This document shows, piece after piece, positions 3,999 through 22,527 of a DNA stretch of 64,000 nucleotides. Numbering within the stretch: position 1 is the stretch's first letter; each line of letters begins with the position of its first letter. A program made the position numbers and the translations under genes. Origin of the DNA: Lachnospiraceae bacterium (GTDB taxonomy: Bacteria > Bacillota > Clostridia > Lachnospirales > Lachnospiraceae); contig SVEJ01000003.1 in assembly GCA_015057435.1 (NCBI GenBank), forward strand, positions 38,393-102,392, given 5' to 3'. The notes beneath the pieces are model-generated. The model saw only the letters and a list, made by a program, of their open reading frames with translations, ran no database searches and had not been told where the DNA came from.

Positions 3999-4811
3999 AT
4001 GGTAGTACAACACAACATGCAAGCAGTAAACACAAACAGAATGTTAGGTCAGAACGTTAAGGCAGTAGCTAAGAACACAGAGAAGTTGGCTTCTGGTTAC
4101 AAAGTTAACAGAGCTGGCGACGATGCAGCAGGTCTTTCAATTTCTGAGAAGATGAGAAATCAGATTCGTGGTTTGAATCAGGCTGTTAAGAACTCTGAAG
4201 AAGGTATTTCTTTGATTCAGACAGCTGAAGGTAACATGAACGAGATTCACTCTATCCTTCAGAGAATGGGTGAGTTAGCTGTTAAGGCTCGTAACGATGT
4301 TAACGCAACTGAAGATCGTCAGACTATCCAGGATGAGATTACTCAGTTGAAGGAAGAGATTACTTCTATTACTAACAAGGCTGAGTTCAACGGAACTAAG
4401 CTTTTGGATGGTAACCTTTCTGGCAAGTTATTGCAGGTTGGAGCTAACGTAGGTGAGACGATGTCAATCTCTATCAGTGGTACATCACTTTCTACATTAG
4501 GTCTTACAACAACTTCTGTAGGTACAGGTGGAGCTGCATCTGCTGCAATCAGTGCAATTCAGGGAGCTATTAAGGCTGTATCTGCTCAGCGTTCTAAGTT
4601 AGGTGCTGTTCAGAACCGTCTTGAGTACACAATCAACAACTTGGAGAACTACTCTGAGAACTTAACATCTGCTGAGTCTGGTATCCGTGATACAGACATG
4701 GCTGAAGAGATGGTTTCTTATAGCAAGAACAACATCTTACAGCAGGCTGCTCAGTCTATGCTTGCACAAGCTAACCAGTCTAACCAGGGTGTATTATCAT
4801 TACTTCAGTAA
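3999..4811 (+). CDS. Flagellin (short form)
   Basis: MVVQHNMQAVNTNRMLGQNVKAVAKNTEKLASGYKVNRAGDDAAGLSISEKMRNQIRGL; SD AAGGAGG places start at 3999 rather than the upstream ATG. Confidence 0.97.
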   Translation: MVVQHNMQAVNTNRMLGQNVKAVAKNTEKLASGYKVNRAGDDAAGLSISEKMRNQIRGLNQAVKNSEEGISLIQTAEGNMNEIHSILQRMGELAVKARNDVNATEDRQTIQDEITQLKEEITSITNKAEFNGTKLLDGNLSGKLLQVGANVGETMSISISGTSLSTLGLTTTSVGTGGAASAAISAIQGAIKAVSAQRSKLGAVQNRLEYTINNLENYSENLTSAESGIRDTDMAEEMVSYSKNNILQQAAQSMLAQANQSNQGVLSLLQ

Positions 4812-4939: not shown

Positions 4940-5293
4940 ATGGAAGAAAAGAGAAAGTATAGAAGATTACCGATTAGTTTGAAGTTAGAAGTATCAGAAG
5001 TATTTAAGCAGGATAATGATGTGATTCGTGATTTGAATGCTGAGATAGAGGTGTTTGATATTTCGAAGAATGGAATTGGTTTTAAGACAACAACTTTGAT
5101 TCCGGAAGGATACTATTTCAATGCGACGATGACATTAGAAAGCTCTGAACAGAAGCTGATGACGGTTGTTAAGATTTTGCATCGTTTTGAATTGCCGGAT
5201 GGATATTACAGATACGGATGTGAATTCACCGGTATGGCCGGAATTTTTGATTTCGTATTCAATGGTTATGAAGATTTGATTGATAAGCAGTAA
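4940..5293 (+). CDS. PilZ domain protein
   Basis: EEKRKYRRLPISLKLEV...DISKNGIGFKT, PilZ-like (RxxxR, DxSxxG). Confidence 0.75.
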   Translation: MEEKRKYRRLPISLKLEVSEVFKQDNDVIRDLNAEIEVFDISKNGIGFKTTTLIPEGYYFNATMTLESSEQKLMTVVKILHRFELPDGYYRYGCEFTGMAGIFDFVFNGYEDLIDKQ

Positions 5294-5358
5294 GAAAATG
5301 CCATGTAGGAAACTCTACATGGCATTTTTGTGTGAAGTATGTGTTGATTCAGAAAGAC

Positions 5359-6615
5359 TTATTGGTGGGATGGAGACAGAAAGACAATATGCTTGCGTGT
5401 GCGCAAATGTTCCCTAATTCCTTCTGTAATGTGATGCGTTCTAATAGGAGAAATTGTAGTCTGTTCCGCGATTGTAAGATCTGCCTCCGTACTATATGGA
5501 AACGTGTTTAACCAATCACATTTTCCGTATCCTACAAGTGTTCCGTTATAACGATTGTATCCTGCATCAAAACCGACCTTGTTATATAGACCAACATATG
5601 CTAGTTGGTAGTCCCCGGGTTCTAGATGAGAAGGAAAGTAAGTGGTAATGTTCGCAGCTCCTGCTAATAGTGGTTCTTCTAAGTTGGCATATATTGTAAA
5701 AGACGTTCCGTCTGTGATGTTTTTGTAGACAAGATAGATGGTAGTAATTCCGATGTCGTCCGTAACTTCGATTTCGTAAGTGGCGACACCGGGTGACTTG
5801 CCATCATATTCTGTAAGTGCAACGCTTTCTAACCTTGGAGCTTCATAGTAATTCATTTCTACTGCTTTCGTAGTTGCGCCGAATACGGCAGCATGTTTTG
5901 GTGAAGGTGCTTCTTCTCCTTTTTTGTGTAGATTGTAGTATGCAGCAATGGCAGTGGCGTCAGCGATGGCAAGCTTTCTTAAACCTTCTTCGGTAGAAAA
6001 ATAAGGTTTATCAATTTCTGAATCCATATAGCAATGTTCTACAATCATAGCGGGAATCCCCTGGTTATATGCATGTCGCAGAACGCCGTAATAATCATCA
6101 AAACTCCCATCGGTTCTTCGCCCGTTCATCTGGGTAACTCTTGCAAACATTCCGGCATTTGATAAACCAATCGCTTCGAATTCGCCTAAAAAACTATCGC
6201 CTAATCGCATCAGTTCATCTTTGTGATAGGCACCGGTACTAAGGTAGATAGATGCACCGTTGCTTGTATGTGATACACTTGCGTTAAAATGTAAGCTTAT
6301 CAGCATATTGGCATGTTGTTCAGATGCACGCTTGCCACGTTCAAAAAGGGAAACTTCTTCGTCCTCTGTTCTGGTAAGAATTGTGGTTACTCCTTCATAT
6401 TCTTCTAATTCTTCTAATAGCATGCGTGCTAACGATAGATTCAGATTTTTTTCCTCTAATCCGTAATAAGTAGCCCCGGTTTCTTCGCCACCATGTCCAG
6501 GATCTAATGCAATGATAAGATTGTTCGTAGTGTGAGCAGTGGCTGAGACGTCAATAGAATTTAGGAAAACCAAGATTATAATTATATATATAATAATAAA
6601 AGTCTTTTTATTCAT
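5359..6615 (-). CDS. N-acetylmuramoyl-L-alanine amidase with C-terminal extension
   Basis: IIALDPGHGGEETGATYYGLEEKNLNLSLARMLLEEL...SLHFNAS amidase_3 motifs. Confidence 0.9.
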   Translation of the reverse strand: MNKKTFIIIYIIIILVFLNSIDVSATAHTTNNLIIALDPGHGGEETGATYYGLEEKNLNLSLARMLLEELEEYEGVTTILTRTEDEEVSLFERGKRASEQHANMLISLHFNASVSHTSNGASIYLSTGAYHKDELMRLGDSFLGEFEAIGLSNAGMFARVTQMNGRRTDGSFDDYYGVLRHAYNQGIPAMIVEHCYMDSEIDKPYFSTEEGLRKLAIADATAIAAYYNLHKKGEEAPSPKHAAVFGATTKAVEMNYYEAPRLESVALTEYDGKSPGVATYEIEVTDDIGITTIYLVYKNITDGTSFTIYANLEEPLLAGAANITTYFPSHLEPGDYQLAYVGLYNKVGFDAGYNRYNGTLVGYGKCDWLNTFPYSTEADLTIAEQTTISPIRTHHITEGIREHLRTRKHIVFLSPSHQ

Positions 6616-8365: not shown

Positions 8366-9187
8366 ATGGTAGTACAGCACAATATGCAAGCAGTTAACAC
8401 AAACAGAATGTTAGGACAGAACGTGAAGGCAGTAGCGAAGAACACAGAGAAGTTATCATCAGGTTACAAGGTAAACCGAGCAGCAGATGATGCAGCTGGT
8501 CTTTCTATTTCTGAAAAGATGAGAAATCAGATTCGTGGTTTGAATCAGGCTGTTAAGAATTCAGAGGAAGGAATTTCACTTATTCAGACAGCAGAAGGTA
8601 ACATGAATGAGATTCACTCAATCCTTCAAAGAATGGGTGAGTTGGCGGTTAAGGCTCGTAATGATGTTAACGCAACAGAAGATCGTCAGACAATTCAGGA
8701 TGAGATTGTTCAGTTGAAGGAAGAGATTACATCTATTACGAACAAGGCAGAGTTCAATGGAACAAAGCTTTTAGATGGTTCGATGAGCACAGGTGCTGCT
8801 AAGTTATTGCAGGTTGGTGCGAATGTTGGAGAGACAATGTCAGTTTCTATCAGTGGTACATCACTTTCCACATTGGGTCTTACAGATGTATCTGTAGGAA
8901 CAGGTGAAGCTGCTTCTGCTGCAATTTCTGCAATTCAGACAGCAATTAAGCATGTATCAGCACAGCGTTCTAAGTTGGGTGCTGTTCAGAATCGTCTTGA
9001 GTATACAATTAACAACTTAGAGAACTACTCTGAGAACTTAACATCTGCTGAGTCAGGAATCAGAGATACTGATATGGCTACAGAGATGGTTGCATACAGC
9101 AAGAATAACATCTTGCAGCAGGCAGCACAGTCAATGCTTTCACAGGCTAATCAGTCTACACAGGGTGTTCTTAACTTATTACAGTAA
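8366..9187 (+). CDS. Flagellin (short form), paralogue of 3999-4811
   Basis: Near-identical N- and C-terminal D0/D1 regions to flagellin 1. Confidence 0.97.
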   Translation: MVVQHNMQAVNTNRMLGQNVKAVAKNTEKLSSGYKVNRAADDAAGLSISEKMRNQIRGLNQAVKNSEEGISLIQTAEGNMNEIHSILQRMGELAVKARNDVNATEDRQTIQDEIVQLKEEITSITNKAEFNGTKLLDGSMSTGAAKLLQVGANVGETMSVSISGTSLSTLGLTDVSVGTGEAASAAISAIQTAIKHVSAQRSKLGAVQNRLEYTINNLENYSENLTSAESGIRDTDMATEMVAYSKNNILQQAAQSMLSQANQSTQGVLNLLQ

Positions 9188-14984: not shown

Positions 14985-15000
14985 AAAATGTGAGGTGTGT

Positions 15001-16071
15001 ATGAAAGCAGTATTTAAGGGAAAGAAAATATCAGGAATATTAGGGATTTTGCCGGATGAAGTAAGTTACTTTGATGACGAAGTCGATAATTATGCATTTC
15101 CGCCAAAACAGACATTACGTCTCAAAAAAGTGATGGGTTTTGAAAAACACAGACTTGCAAAAGCAGATAGTACAGTTTCTGATTTTTGTATTTTTGGTTT
15201 AAAGCATTTGTTGGCAGAGGGCAAGGTTAAGAAAGAGGAGATTGGTGCAATTGTTGTAGTGACATTGTCTCCGGATTATTTTGTGCCGCATGTAAGTAAC
15301 ATTATTCATGGAGAATGTGAATTGCCGGAGGATGTACTTTGCATGGATATTGCACAAGGATGTTGTGGTTATCTGTTAGGGCTTATGCAATCTTTCATGT
15401 TGTTGGATGTATTGAAAGATAAGAAAGTTGTATTGTTTAATACGGATGTGCTAAGCCACAAAGTATCTAAGCAAGACAGGAACGATTATCCATTGATTGG
15501 AGATGCAACGAGCATTAGTGTTATAGAAAATGATGTTAATGCTGATGATATTTATTTTGAATTGCATACAAATGGCGGACAACGAAATGCTTTGATAATA
15601 CCTGCGGGTGGATTTGCTATGCCGTCTACATCAGAAACGGCTGTTATGAAAGAGATGGAGGATGGAAATCGTCGTTCGTTAGATCATCTGCATATGGACG
15701 GAGCAGAGGTTTTTAACTTTGTTCAGACGAAGATTCCGCCTATGCTCGAAGAAACATTTCAGTCGTTGAATATTCGAAAAGAAGATATAGATTATTACTT
15801 GTTCCATCAGCCGAATAAGTTTATGTTGAAAAAATTAGCGGATAAGATTGGTGTACCATACGAAAAAATGTTTATGAACGTGGTGGAGAATTTTGGTAAT
15901 CCGAGTGGAGCGTCTATACCGATGAATATAGTATACAATATAAGAAGTTTGTTGATAGATAATAACTTTACTTGCTGTTTGTCGGCGTTTGGCTCGGGAT
16001 TGACTTGGGGAATTATGGTAATGAAATTAGGTGGTTTTGATTTTTGTGATCTTATAGAATCACCATATTGA
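15001..16071 (+). CDS. 3-oxoacyl-ACP synthase III-like protein (KAS III-1)
   Basis: AQGCCGYLLGL (Cys), FHQPNKFML (His), NFGNPSGAS (Asn) triad. Confidence 0.85.
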   Translation: MKAVFKGKKISGILGILPDEVSYFDDEVDNYAFPPKQTLRLKKVMGFEKHRLAKADSTVSDFCIFGLKHLLAEGKVKKEEIGAIVVVTLSPDYFVPHVSNIIHGECELPEDVLCMDIAQGCCGYLLGLMQSFMLLDVLKDKKVVLFNTDVLSHKVSKQDRNDYPLIGDATSISVIENDVNADDIYFELHTNGGQRNALIIPAGGFAMPSTSETAVMKEMEDGNRRSLDHLHMDGAEVFNFVQTKIPPMLEETFQSLNIRKEDIDYYLFHQPNKFMLKKLADKIGVPYEKMFMNVVENFGNPSGASIPMNIVYNIRSLLIDNNFTCCLSAFGSGLTWGIMVMKLGGFDFCDLIESPY

Positions 16072-16963: not shown

Positions 16964-17009
16964 TCATAGATGAATGTAAAAATAAATTGATATTTGGGAG
17001 ATTTCAATT

Positions 17010-17668
17010 ATGGTGGAAGATTTGAAAGGAAAAAAGGTAAGTATATGGGGAACCGGAATGGGTGGAAAAAAGATGTATACTTTTTGAAAAACCATGCCGA
17101 GATAGAATGTTTCTACGATAGCGATGAAAGAAAAAGTGGAATGTTACTATATGATGTACCAATTAGAAAATGGTCACCATTGGTAGATGTATTATATTTA
17201 TTTGTAGTAGAGGAAGATAAATCTATTTTTTCGTTTCAGCAGCGGTTATCCATGGTTCGAGAAGGGGTGAAAGAGTATAATAATGTATTGGTAATACCAA
17301 GTGGTGATTTTATGATTTCAACACTGACTTTTCCGGGATATTTCATGAAGGACAATCCTGCTAGGGCATGTTATGATACGTTTCTGGATTTGAAAATCTT
17401 CGCACATTATGTGGCGCCTGCGTTTGGTATTGAAAGTAGGTTTGTAGGATGTGAACCTTTTGATAAGGTAACAGCACAGTACAATCATGATATGAAAATT
17501 ATCTTACAGGCTCAAGGAATTATGGTGATTGAAATTCCACGAAAAGAAGTGGAAGGGCAAGTCATTAGTGCTACTGTGGTGAGGAAATTGTTAATGGATA
17601 AAGATTGGACTAAATTAGAGAGATTTGTTCCGGCATCCACGCTTGAGATTTTAAAATTAAATAAATGA
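17010..17668 (+). pseudogene. [Citrate lyase] ligase (CitC)-like gene split across two frames; possible -1 frameshift
   Basis: Frame 1 MVEDLKGKKVSIWGTGMGGKKMYTF* joins frame -1 ...FLKNHAEIECFYDSDERKSG...VDVLYLFVVEEDKSIF...VLVIPSGDFMISTLTFPGYF...IEIPRKEVEGQVISATVVRKLL. Confidence 0.65.
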
Positions 17669-17677
17669 TAAATGTTT

Positions 17678-17710
17678 AAAAATCCGATGAGGGAATTTCA
17701 TCGGATTTTT
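17678..17710. terminator. Bidirectional terminator between convergent units
   Basis: AAAAATCCGATGA-GGGAAT-TTCATCGGATTTTT. Confidence 0.85.
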
Positions 17711-17740
17711 GACATTTATATAGAACAATTATAATTGCAA

Positions 17741-18519: not shown

Positions 18520-19617
18520 CTATTTTCCTTCATTTTGTTTTTGATGAATATGTTCCAAGAAACCTTCCTCGAAATATTCATTGGTGTGGATGATAGGTAA
18601 AATGTCATTTTTGTCAATTTCAAAAGTAGCAATACCCCAATTTAGTCCGATGCCAAAAGCAGAGGTAATAAATTTGATTCTATTAGGTACATTTTCTCTT
18701 TCACATAAATCTGCAATTGTCATTAACACGGAGGCACCATCGGTATTACCGTATCGTTCAATGGAACGTGGGACTTTTTCTTTAGGTAATTTTAGTTTCT
18801 TTTCGATATGATCAAGAATCATTTTATTTGCTTGATGAAATACAAAGTAGTCATAATTATCAGGTGAACAACGGTGTTCTTTATAAAAGTCATTGAATAA
18901 TTTTGGGACTTTTGTAATAGTAAATAAGAATACGTCGCTGCCATCCATATAGTGTCTGTACTGGTTTGTATCTAGATTATCTGCATCAAAATAAAATCTT
19001 CCATTTTCTGTTGGACCAGGAGTGATAATTGCATCATAACCGTTTCCATCAGATTTGATACTTGTTATGATATTGGAATCACCTTCTTCAATAATGCATG
19101 CTGAACAAGCATCACCAGTTAACATGGTGTCATGTGTAAGGCTAGCGTTTGAGGAAATGTTGTGATTATGAGCATCTCCGATTAAAAGCAGTGCGCGCTT
19201 AATTGCTCCGCTTTTAATCATAGAGGCGATAGTACAAATTCCTGTTGGAAGAGAAGAACAGCCTAAATTTATATCATAGACAATACAGTCGTGTTTTAAA
19301 TTTAATCTTTTGTGAAGGACATATGAAGTTGCAGGAATGATATAATCCGGAGTTTGTGTCATTAAAATGAGTGCGTCAATATCTTCGCCGGTGTAATTTT
19401 TGTGTTCCATTAATTTTTTTGCGGCTACATAACAAAGATCAGAAGCAGTCTGCTCTTTGATTGAATAACAGCGGGATTTGATTCCCGAAGTTTTGATAAA
19501 TTGATCAATTTCTTTTTGGTCAAAGTATTTACTAAAATATTGCGTGTCTACAAGGTTATCCGGAACGGCACAGGCAATCCCGCTGATTTTTACATTTTCA
19601 AATATAGTACTTGGCAT
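18520..19617 (-). CDS. 3-oxoacyl-ACP synthase III-like protein (KAS III-2)
   Basis: LGCSSLPTGI (Cys), FHQANKMIL (His), YGNTDGAS (Asn). Confidence 0.87.
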   Translation of the reverse strand: MPSTIFENVKISGIACAVPDNLVDTQYFSKYFDQKEIDQFIKTSGIKSRCYSIKEQTASDLCYVAAKKLMEHKNYTGEDIDALILMTQTPDYIIPATSYVLHKRLNLKHDCIVYDINLGCSSLPTGICTIASMIKSGAIKRALLLIGDAHNHNISSNASLTHDTMLTGDACSACIIEEGDSNIITSIKSDGNGYDAIITPGPTENGRFYFDADNLDTNQYRHYMDGSDVFLFTITKVPKLFNDFYKEHRCSPDNYDYFVFHQANKMILDHIEKKLKLPKEKVPRSIERYGNTDGASVLMTIADLCERENVPNRIKFITSAFGIGLNWGIATFEIDKNDILPIIHTNEYFEEGFLEHIHQKQNEGK

Positions 19618-19650
19618 AGTTTTTCTCCATTTCAATGTGATTGTATATAC

Positions 19651-20561: not shown

Positions 20562-20751
20562 ATTTGTAACCTCGTTAGAATAGATTTGTACCATCAATTA
20601 ATTATATCGGCTTTTCTATGTATAAAGTTTAGATGTTTTAGGCCGATATTTATAGTAGTAAGCTAATGCCATACTTTTTGTTTTGCGTTGCGAAAAGTTT
20701 AGAATAATACTATAATAAAATGGTCAGAAAAAGGTGAAGGAGAGTAGATGT

Positions 20752-20985
20752 ATGGAGCAGTTATACAGGATGTTAGAAGAATTAAGACCGGAATTTGATT
20801 TTAGAGAAGACGTTAATTATATTGAAGAAGGTATGTTGGATTCATTTGATATCATCTCGTTAGTAGACGAAATAGAAGAAAAATATTCTATTAAAATTGA
20901 TGGGTTAGATATTATTCCAGACAATTTTGAAACAATAGAGAAGATTTCTACTTTGATTGTTCGTAGCGGTGGCGTAATAGAATGA
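20752..20985 (+). CDS. Acyl/aminoacyl carrier protein (DltC-like)
   Basis: EEGMLDSFDIISLVDEIEEKYSIKIDGLDIIPDNFETIEKI. Confidence 0.82.
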   Translation: MEQLYRMLEELRPEFDFREDVNYIEEGMLDSFDIISLVDEIEEKYSIKIDGLDIIPDNFETIEKISTLIVRSGGVIE

Positions 20986-21006: not shown

Positions 21007-22527
21007 ATGCAAAATACAGTAATATCTTATCTTGAAAATACAGTTGGACAATATCCTGATAAGGTTGCGGTACAGGATAAGGAGAGCGCATGCACATTTG
21101 AAGAATTAAGAAAGGCGGCATTATGTATCAGCACTGCTATTTTTCGAAGAATTCAAATGACAAAACAACCGATATTTGTTTACTTACCAAAGAGTGTAAG
21201 GAGTATACAGGCATTTATGGGAGTACTTTATAGTGGTAATTTTTATACTCCGACAGACGTTAATTTTCCTTTTGAAAAAGCGAATAGTATTATTAAGTGC
21301 TTACAACCAGCTCTTATATTATCTGATACAAAGCACGCAAGTATTTTGGAGTCTAATGGAGTGGATTCAGAGCGCATATTGAATTTAGACGAGATATCAT
21401 TCGACGCAGAGAATGAGGACTTTGTCTGCACGGATATTATAGATACAGATGTGGCTTACATATTGTTTACATCTGGCTCGACAGGTGTACCGAAGGGTGT
21501 TGTGATTTCACATCGTAGTATTATCGATTATATTGATTGGGCGAAGGAATGTTTTCGCGTTAACGAGAAAGATACGATAGGTAATCAAGCTCCGTTTTAT
21601 TTTGATAATTCGACATTAGATATATATTTGATGTTGAGTACAGGAGCAACTCTTCAGATAGTACCTGAAGGTTTATTTGCATTTCCTGCGAAATTGATGG
21701 AATATGTTCGGACGATGGAGATTAATACTATTTTTTGGGTTCCTTCAGTTTTTATTAATGTAGCTAATATGGATATCTTGAGTCGAATAGATTGCTCGTG
21801 TTTGAAGAAGATTTTGTTTGCCGGGGAAGTTATGCCTAACAAGCATTTGAATTATTGGAGAAAGCATATAAAGGATGCATTATATGCCAATTTATATGGA
21901 CCGACAGAGATTACTGTCGATTGTACATACTATCTGGTGGATAGAGAATTTGCGGATGATGAACCGTTACCGATTGGTGTCCCTTGTGTGAATTCCAATG
22001 TTATGTTGTTGGATGATGAAGGAAGGCTGATAGAAGAAGCGAATGTGACAGGAGAGCTTTGTGTCAGAGGAACATCATTGGCTTTGGGATATTGGAATAA
22101 TTGGGAAAAAACCAATGAAGTTTTTGTGCAAAACCCTATGAATAAAGCATATCCGGAAAAAATATATTGTACAGGAGACTTGGCACACTATAATGAATTT
22201 GGTGAAATTATGTTTGATGGAAGAAAAGATTTTCAAATTAAACATATGGGATATCGAATAGAATTAGGCGAGATAGAAACGATGGTGTTAGGGTTAGAAG
22301 AAATCAAGGAAGCTTGCGTTTTATATGATTCCGATAACAGGGAAATTGTATTGTGTTATGTGGGATTAGAAACGGCAAACAAGCAGTATCTTAGAAGATG
22401 TTTGATGAATAAACTTCCGAAGTACATGATTCCGACAAAGTATATTCAGATGGAAGTGTTACCTAAGAATGATAATGGAAAGATAAATCGAAAAGAATTG
22501 CAGAAATGCATCATGGAAAAAGCATGA
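21007..22527 (+). CDS. AMP-dependent (amino)acyl-ACP ligase, DltA/A-domain-like
   Basis: YILFTSGSTGVPKGVVISHRS, NLYGPTEITVDCTYY, YCTGDLA, GRKDFQIKHMGYRIELGEIE, NDNGKINRKEL core motifs. Confidence 0.93.
   Translation: MQNTVISYLENTVGQYPDKVAVQDKESACTFEELRKAALCISTAIFRRIQMTKQPIFVYLPKSVRSIQAFMGVLYSGNFYTPTDVNFPFEKANSIIKCLQPALILSDTKHASILESNGVDSERILNLDEISFDAENEDFVCTDIIDTDVAYILFTSGSTGVPKGVVISHRSIIDYIDWAKECFRVNEKDTIGNQAPFYFDNSTLDIYLMLSTGATLQIVPEGLFAFPAKLMEYVRTMEINTIFWVPSVFINVANMDILSRIDCSCLKKILFAGEVMPNKHLNYWRKHIKDALYANLYGPTEITVDCTYYLVDREFADDEPLPIGVPCVNSNVMLLDDEGRLIEEANVTGELCVRGTSLALGYWNNWEKTNEVFVQNPMNKAYPEKIYCTGDLAHYNEFGEIMFDGRKDFQIKHMGYRIELGEIETMVLGLEEIKEACVLYDSDNREIVLCYVGLETANKQYLRRCLMNKLPKYMIPTKYIQMEVLPKNDNGKINRKELQKCIMEKA

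Follow-up and report, generated by a model that had tools for sequence, protein, structure and literature searches.

A split reading frame in a flagellin glycosylation locus

The stretch of Lachnospiraceae DNA that we analysed (hereafter the window; 64,000 nucleotides, 38% GC) contains a flagellin gene (8366-9187), homologues of pseB, pseF, pseI and pseG that score above their NCBIfam cut-offs, and genes for a Maf-type glycosyltransferase-like protein, an acyl-carrier-type ORF, two KASIII-like proteins and a formyltransferase-like protein; it is a pseudaminic-acid flagellin glycosylation locus. The KASIII-like genes (14995-16071 and 18520-19635), the acyl-carrier-like ORF (20734-20985) and an AMP-ligase-like gene (21007-22527) all lie inside the pseudaminic-acid cluster, and as a set they suggest that the flagellar sugar is acylated in an unusual way.

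On the forward strand of the window, an ATG at 17010-17012, with a GGGAG ribosome-binding-like sequence on its 5' side, opens a frame (the 0-frame, 17010-17087) that translates as MVEDLKGKKVSIWGTGMGGKKMYTF, the first 25 codons of a Rossmann-like domain with a GTGxGG motif, and ends at a TGA at 17085-17087. The -1 frame reads FLKNHAEIECFYDSDERKSG... up to a stop at 17666-17668. It encodes the remainder of the truncated Rossmann-like domain (FLKNHAEIECFYDSDERKSGMLLYDVPI, then RKW; 17081-17173), passes an approximate junction at 17166-17180, between ..YDVPI and SPLVD.., and closes with a CitC-like nucleotidyltransferase domain of which only the C-terminal ~164 residues are left (PF08218/TIGR00124; 17174-17668). 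A preliminary description of this locus had given the positions of the start codon and the TGA, of two A AAA AAG heptamers (17030-17036 and 17066-17072) and of a run of five T residues (17081-17085), and had called the -1 frame open; all of these coordinates are correct. From 16994, 3' of a TGA at 16988, the -1 frame lies open and offers candidate starts at TTG 16994 and ATG 17045, so its translation needs no frameshift; a gene caller can see it as a 224-codon ORF without one. A hairpin with a T tail at 17676-17712, 3' of the remnant, resembles an intrinsic terminator, although the count of such elements does not exceed that in shuffled sequences and the resemblance is suggestive only.

The CitC-like domain and the missing motif block

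The retained domain matches PF08218, the citrate lyase ligase C-terminal domain, with an E-value of 1.5e-51 and 175 bits against a gathering score of 20.9. The match spans only profile positions 26-181 of 182 and starts after 'SPLVD', whereas intact relatives match from profile position 1-2 and match cytidylyltransferase motif families too. Likewise, the TIGR00124 match begins at position 166 of 335 in the window and at 118-138 in intact relatives; its score of 169.7 bits is below the cut-off of 262.1, as are those of the intact relatives from such clusters (205.8-212.8). The earlier naming of the gene as CitC-like is thus borne out for the part that follows 'SPLVD', but the residues that had been quoted for it are not CitC.

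We compared 65 homologous frames from CitC relatives drawn from the genome scan, the genus and the family. The strict motif N-x-NP-x-T-x-GH-xx-L was found in 62 of them and a one-residue variant in two more; the sole frame without it (1/65) is half of another broken copy. This HxGH-type nucleotidyltransferase motif (N-x-NPFT-x-GH-xx-L) lies directly 5' of '..VDxLYxFVVEEDKS', usually in the C-terminal part of proteins of 330-900 aa. Intact relatives read ..IVMNCNPFTxGHxYLIExAxxxVDxLYxFVVEEDKS.., whereas the window's counterpart reads ..YDVPIRKWSPLVDVLYLFVVEEDKS..., with a stub of about 50 residues from an unrelated Rossmann-like domain running directly into '..SPLVDVLYLFVVEEDKS'. The NPFTxGH motif is absent from the window. 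In a structure search, the intact domain matched phosphopantetheine adenylyltransferases, with the alignment beginning in the NPFTxGH region. That region is the nucleotide-binding segment of the phosphopantetheine adenylyltransferase superfamily, and the window's protein therefore lacks the active-site segment.

The loss extends further upstream. The nearest relatives, L004 (64% identity over the window's last ~164 residues) and L005 (63%), have stop-to-stop frames of 915 and 896 residues, respectively, with CBS-like and SGNH-like parts N-terminal of the CitC domain, whereas the window's protein would have about 219 aa. What the window shares with CitC-like nucleotidyltransferases is thus the C-terminal part, while the first ~25 profile positions, including the NPFTxGH motif, are absent. 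It had been proposed that one extra T or A would make this an ordinary intact gene. That is wrong, since the catalytic-motif block and most of the relatives' protein are missing too; a complete enzyme could not be restored by frameshifting, by slippage or by correcting a base. The missing parts were not found elsewhere: the rest of the same genome has neither a second CitC copy nor a separate CBS, SGNH or motif part, a search of 26 genomes of the genus for an intact copy returned only one other CitC-like gene (47% identical), and the viral contigs searched hold no copy. The relatives keep the region of the break as a single open frame, and none is broken at the window's site.

Within the retained ~164 residues, 39 of 41 family-conserved positions are kept, which equals the level of a working homologue (the homologue median is 93%), and this part has no further stops or frame breaks. 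Either the loss is therefore recent or the assembly is wrong.

The frame break and candidate recoding signals

To place the frame break, we compared three readings of it with eight Rossmann relatives. The reading that stays in the 0-frame as far as the T run at 17081-17085 scored 53.8 bits, and those that shift at the second and the first heptamer scored 46.5 and 26.9 bits, respectively. The ranking of the T run over the second heptamer is suggestive, because the comparison set is small and was picked by similarity to the query. The 0-frame residues up to the run, KKMYTF, are closer to the relatives than are the -1 residues, and the run is the best-fitting position for the break. An indel at the T run is the most economical reading of the frame break. 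The first heptamer is clearly excluded as the source of a sensible product: a shift at 17030-17036 would enter the correct frame and give the wrong protein, because the GTGxGG stretch of the Rossmann motif would be destroyed. Accordingly, of the earlier claim that both heptamers give the right product frame, the frame stands and the product of the first does not.

The preliminary description had placed its emphasis on these heptamers, and programmed -1 ribosomal frameshifting of the dnaX type would make a fused product from the two frames. Both heptamers are in the slippery phase (xxA AAA AAG) of the 0-frame and 5' of its stop, they are of a type known for promoting -1 shifts (PMC4066793, PMC3711429), and the first has a GGTGG 14 nt upstream that falls within the definition of a Shine-Dalgarno (SD)-like element in PMC4066793. 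At the second heptamer, which fits the break less well than the T run, no SD-like element was present in the range of spacings given there. RNA folds 3' of the two heptamers were no better than those of shuffled sequences (z -0.92 and 0.18). In-frame A AAA AAG also occurs in intact-looking ORFs of the window (10 cases, in 9 of its 59 long ORFs), the -1 frame has starts of its own, no relative shares the break, and the frameshift product would be without the catalytic motif. The window thus resembles dnaX and IS3-type programmed frameshift genes in having the heptamer in correct phase, but differs from them in having no conserved site, significant fold or sensible product, and its heptamers are not the best-fitting break point. 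The emphasis on slippery sites is not supported. Both heptamers are ordinary Lys-Lys codons of an A-rich genome, and programmed frameshifting is very improbable here. A heptamer followed by a stop is insufficient for a claim of recoding unless the read-through product has been checked as complete.

The A6 and T5 runs are equally improbable as sites of slipped-strand phase variation or of transcriptional slippage. Phase variation typically affects flagella, capsule and similar surface structures (PMC3711429). The window's runs are only 6 (A) and 5 (T) nt long, however, and fall below both the transcriptional slippage examples in that study (An with n>7, Tn with n>8) and the minimum run that it used (7 nt); the window has no hypermutable long homopolymer or tandem repeat here. 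A switch of frame would also leave the missing motif unrestored. Unclustered frame breaks are regarded in the same study mostly as indels or sequencing errors.

Origin of the remnant

The stub, MVEDLKGKKVSIWGTGMGGKKMY..DSDERKSGMLLYDVPI, is similar to Rossmann-like domains of multidomain glycan-cluster proteins (L064, L067, L069, L071, L072 and L086). In most of these relatives, the domain runs well past the point at which the window's copy breaks off, and the stub is itself truncated. Its matches are mostly 30-50% identical over the matched stretch, and many are generic GxGxxG folds; a search for its parent in the organism's own genome, the genus, the family and the order returned weak matches only. 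In L097, a protein with such a Rossmann-like N-terminal domain is encoded two genes upstream of, and co-oriented with, an intact SGNH-CitC gene, and a deletion between two genes so arranged would yield the window's layout.

We consider it highly likely that the locus is a pseudogene, in which a deletion has fused two glycan-cluster genes and which also carries a frameshift, and that it encodes no working enzyme. That both of the joined domains are truncated is what makes the locus look like such a fusion. A deletion would have removed the HxGH motif together with the domains upstream of it, leaving the start of a glycan-cluster gene (about 50 residues of a Rossmann-like domain) fused in frame with the final ~164 codons of a CitC-like gene, and a one-base frame break near the T run at 17081-17085 would further interrupt the fused frame. 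The window shows both the frame break and a lack of the motif block and of the domains upstream of it, and the relatives show neither, so that the locus carries disabling lesions relative to intact homologues; the order of the events, deletion as their route and the loss of function we infer. Against this reading stand the good conservation of the retained part and the fact that the fusion is in frame, for which the chance expectation is one in three. 'True pseudogene' had been among the options listed earlier, and it holds, although the larger of the two lesions had been overlooked.

The main rival is an assembly artefact, a mis-join and/or an indel behind which the organism's genes would be intact; we regard it as unlikely, though well ahead of the other alternatives. 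The assembly is draft-like, with 74 contigs that total 2.7 Mb and a completeness of ~93%, the retained CitC part looks conserved, and a pseI-like gene is split in the relative's draft contig L005 too. An artefact, however, needs two separate faults inside one short gene, the rest of the genome does not contain the missing part, and the surrounding ORFs examined are intact, two overlapping pairs among them being distinct genes on checking. Because two independent faults would fall in a small gene with intact examined surroundings, we favour a pseudogene over an assembly error.

It is also conceivable, although only slightly, that translation of the remnant continues, initiated at its own -1 start or reached by low-level frameshifting, and yields a small non-catalytic protein of the pseudaminic-acid cluster; the conserved remaining residues would then reflect a non-catalytic role.

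A deletion-plus-frameshift pseudogene is an ordinary kind of object. Like an ordinary bacterial pseudogene with a singleton frame break, in the terms of PMC3711429, the locus has one member, a break that is not conserved and intact homologues, but it differs in its additional fusion deletion. Beyond annotation its significance is small: one candidate recoding case is removed.

In L005, the intact CitC-type gene adjoins cytidylyltransferase-like and pseI/neuB-like genes (both named by reading, without a family scan), and the remnant is therefore placed where a CitC-type gene would be expected. On the pseudogene reading, the window's genome has lost a CitC-like gene that is present in a relative's comparable sialic/pseudaminic-type cluster. 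We found nothing in the literature on CitC-like genes in flagellin glycosylation. The pseI/neuB-like gene of L005 (4975-6011) appears split into two overlapping frames (4975-5250 and 5205-6011), probably by an indel in the draft assembly.

L097, from another genome of the family, carries a second, independently broken CitC-like fragment (4099-4612, minus strand), with a frame break at a different position from the window's and an extra in-frame TGA; its genome retains an intact SGNH-CitC gene (L097, 14681-16573). In two Treponema contigs (L017 and L023), a single open frame of 1335-1455 codons, which extends off the contig start, apparently encodes SGNH-CitC and an NAD-dependent epimerase-like domain as one fusion protein, and in L002 a separate epimerase-like gene lies 3' of the SGNH-CitC gene.
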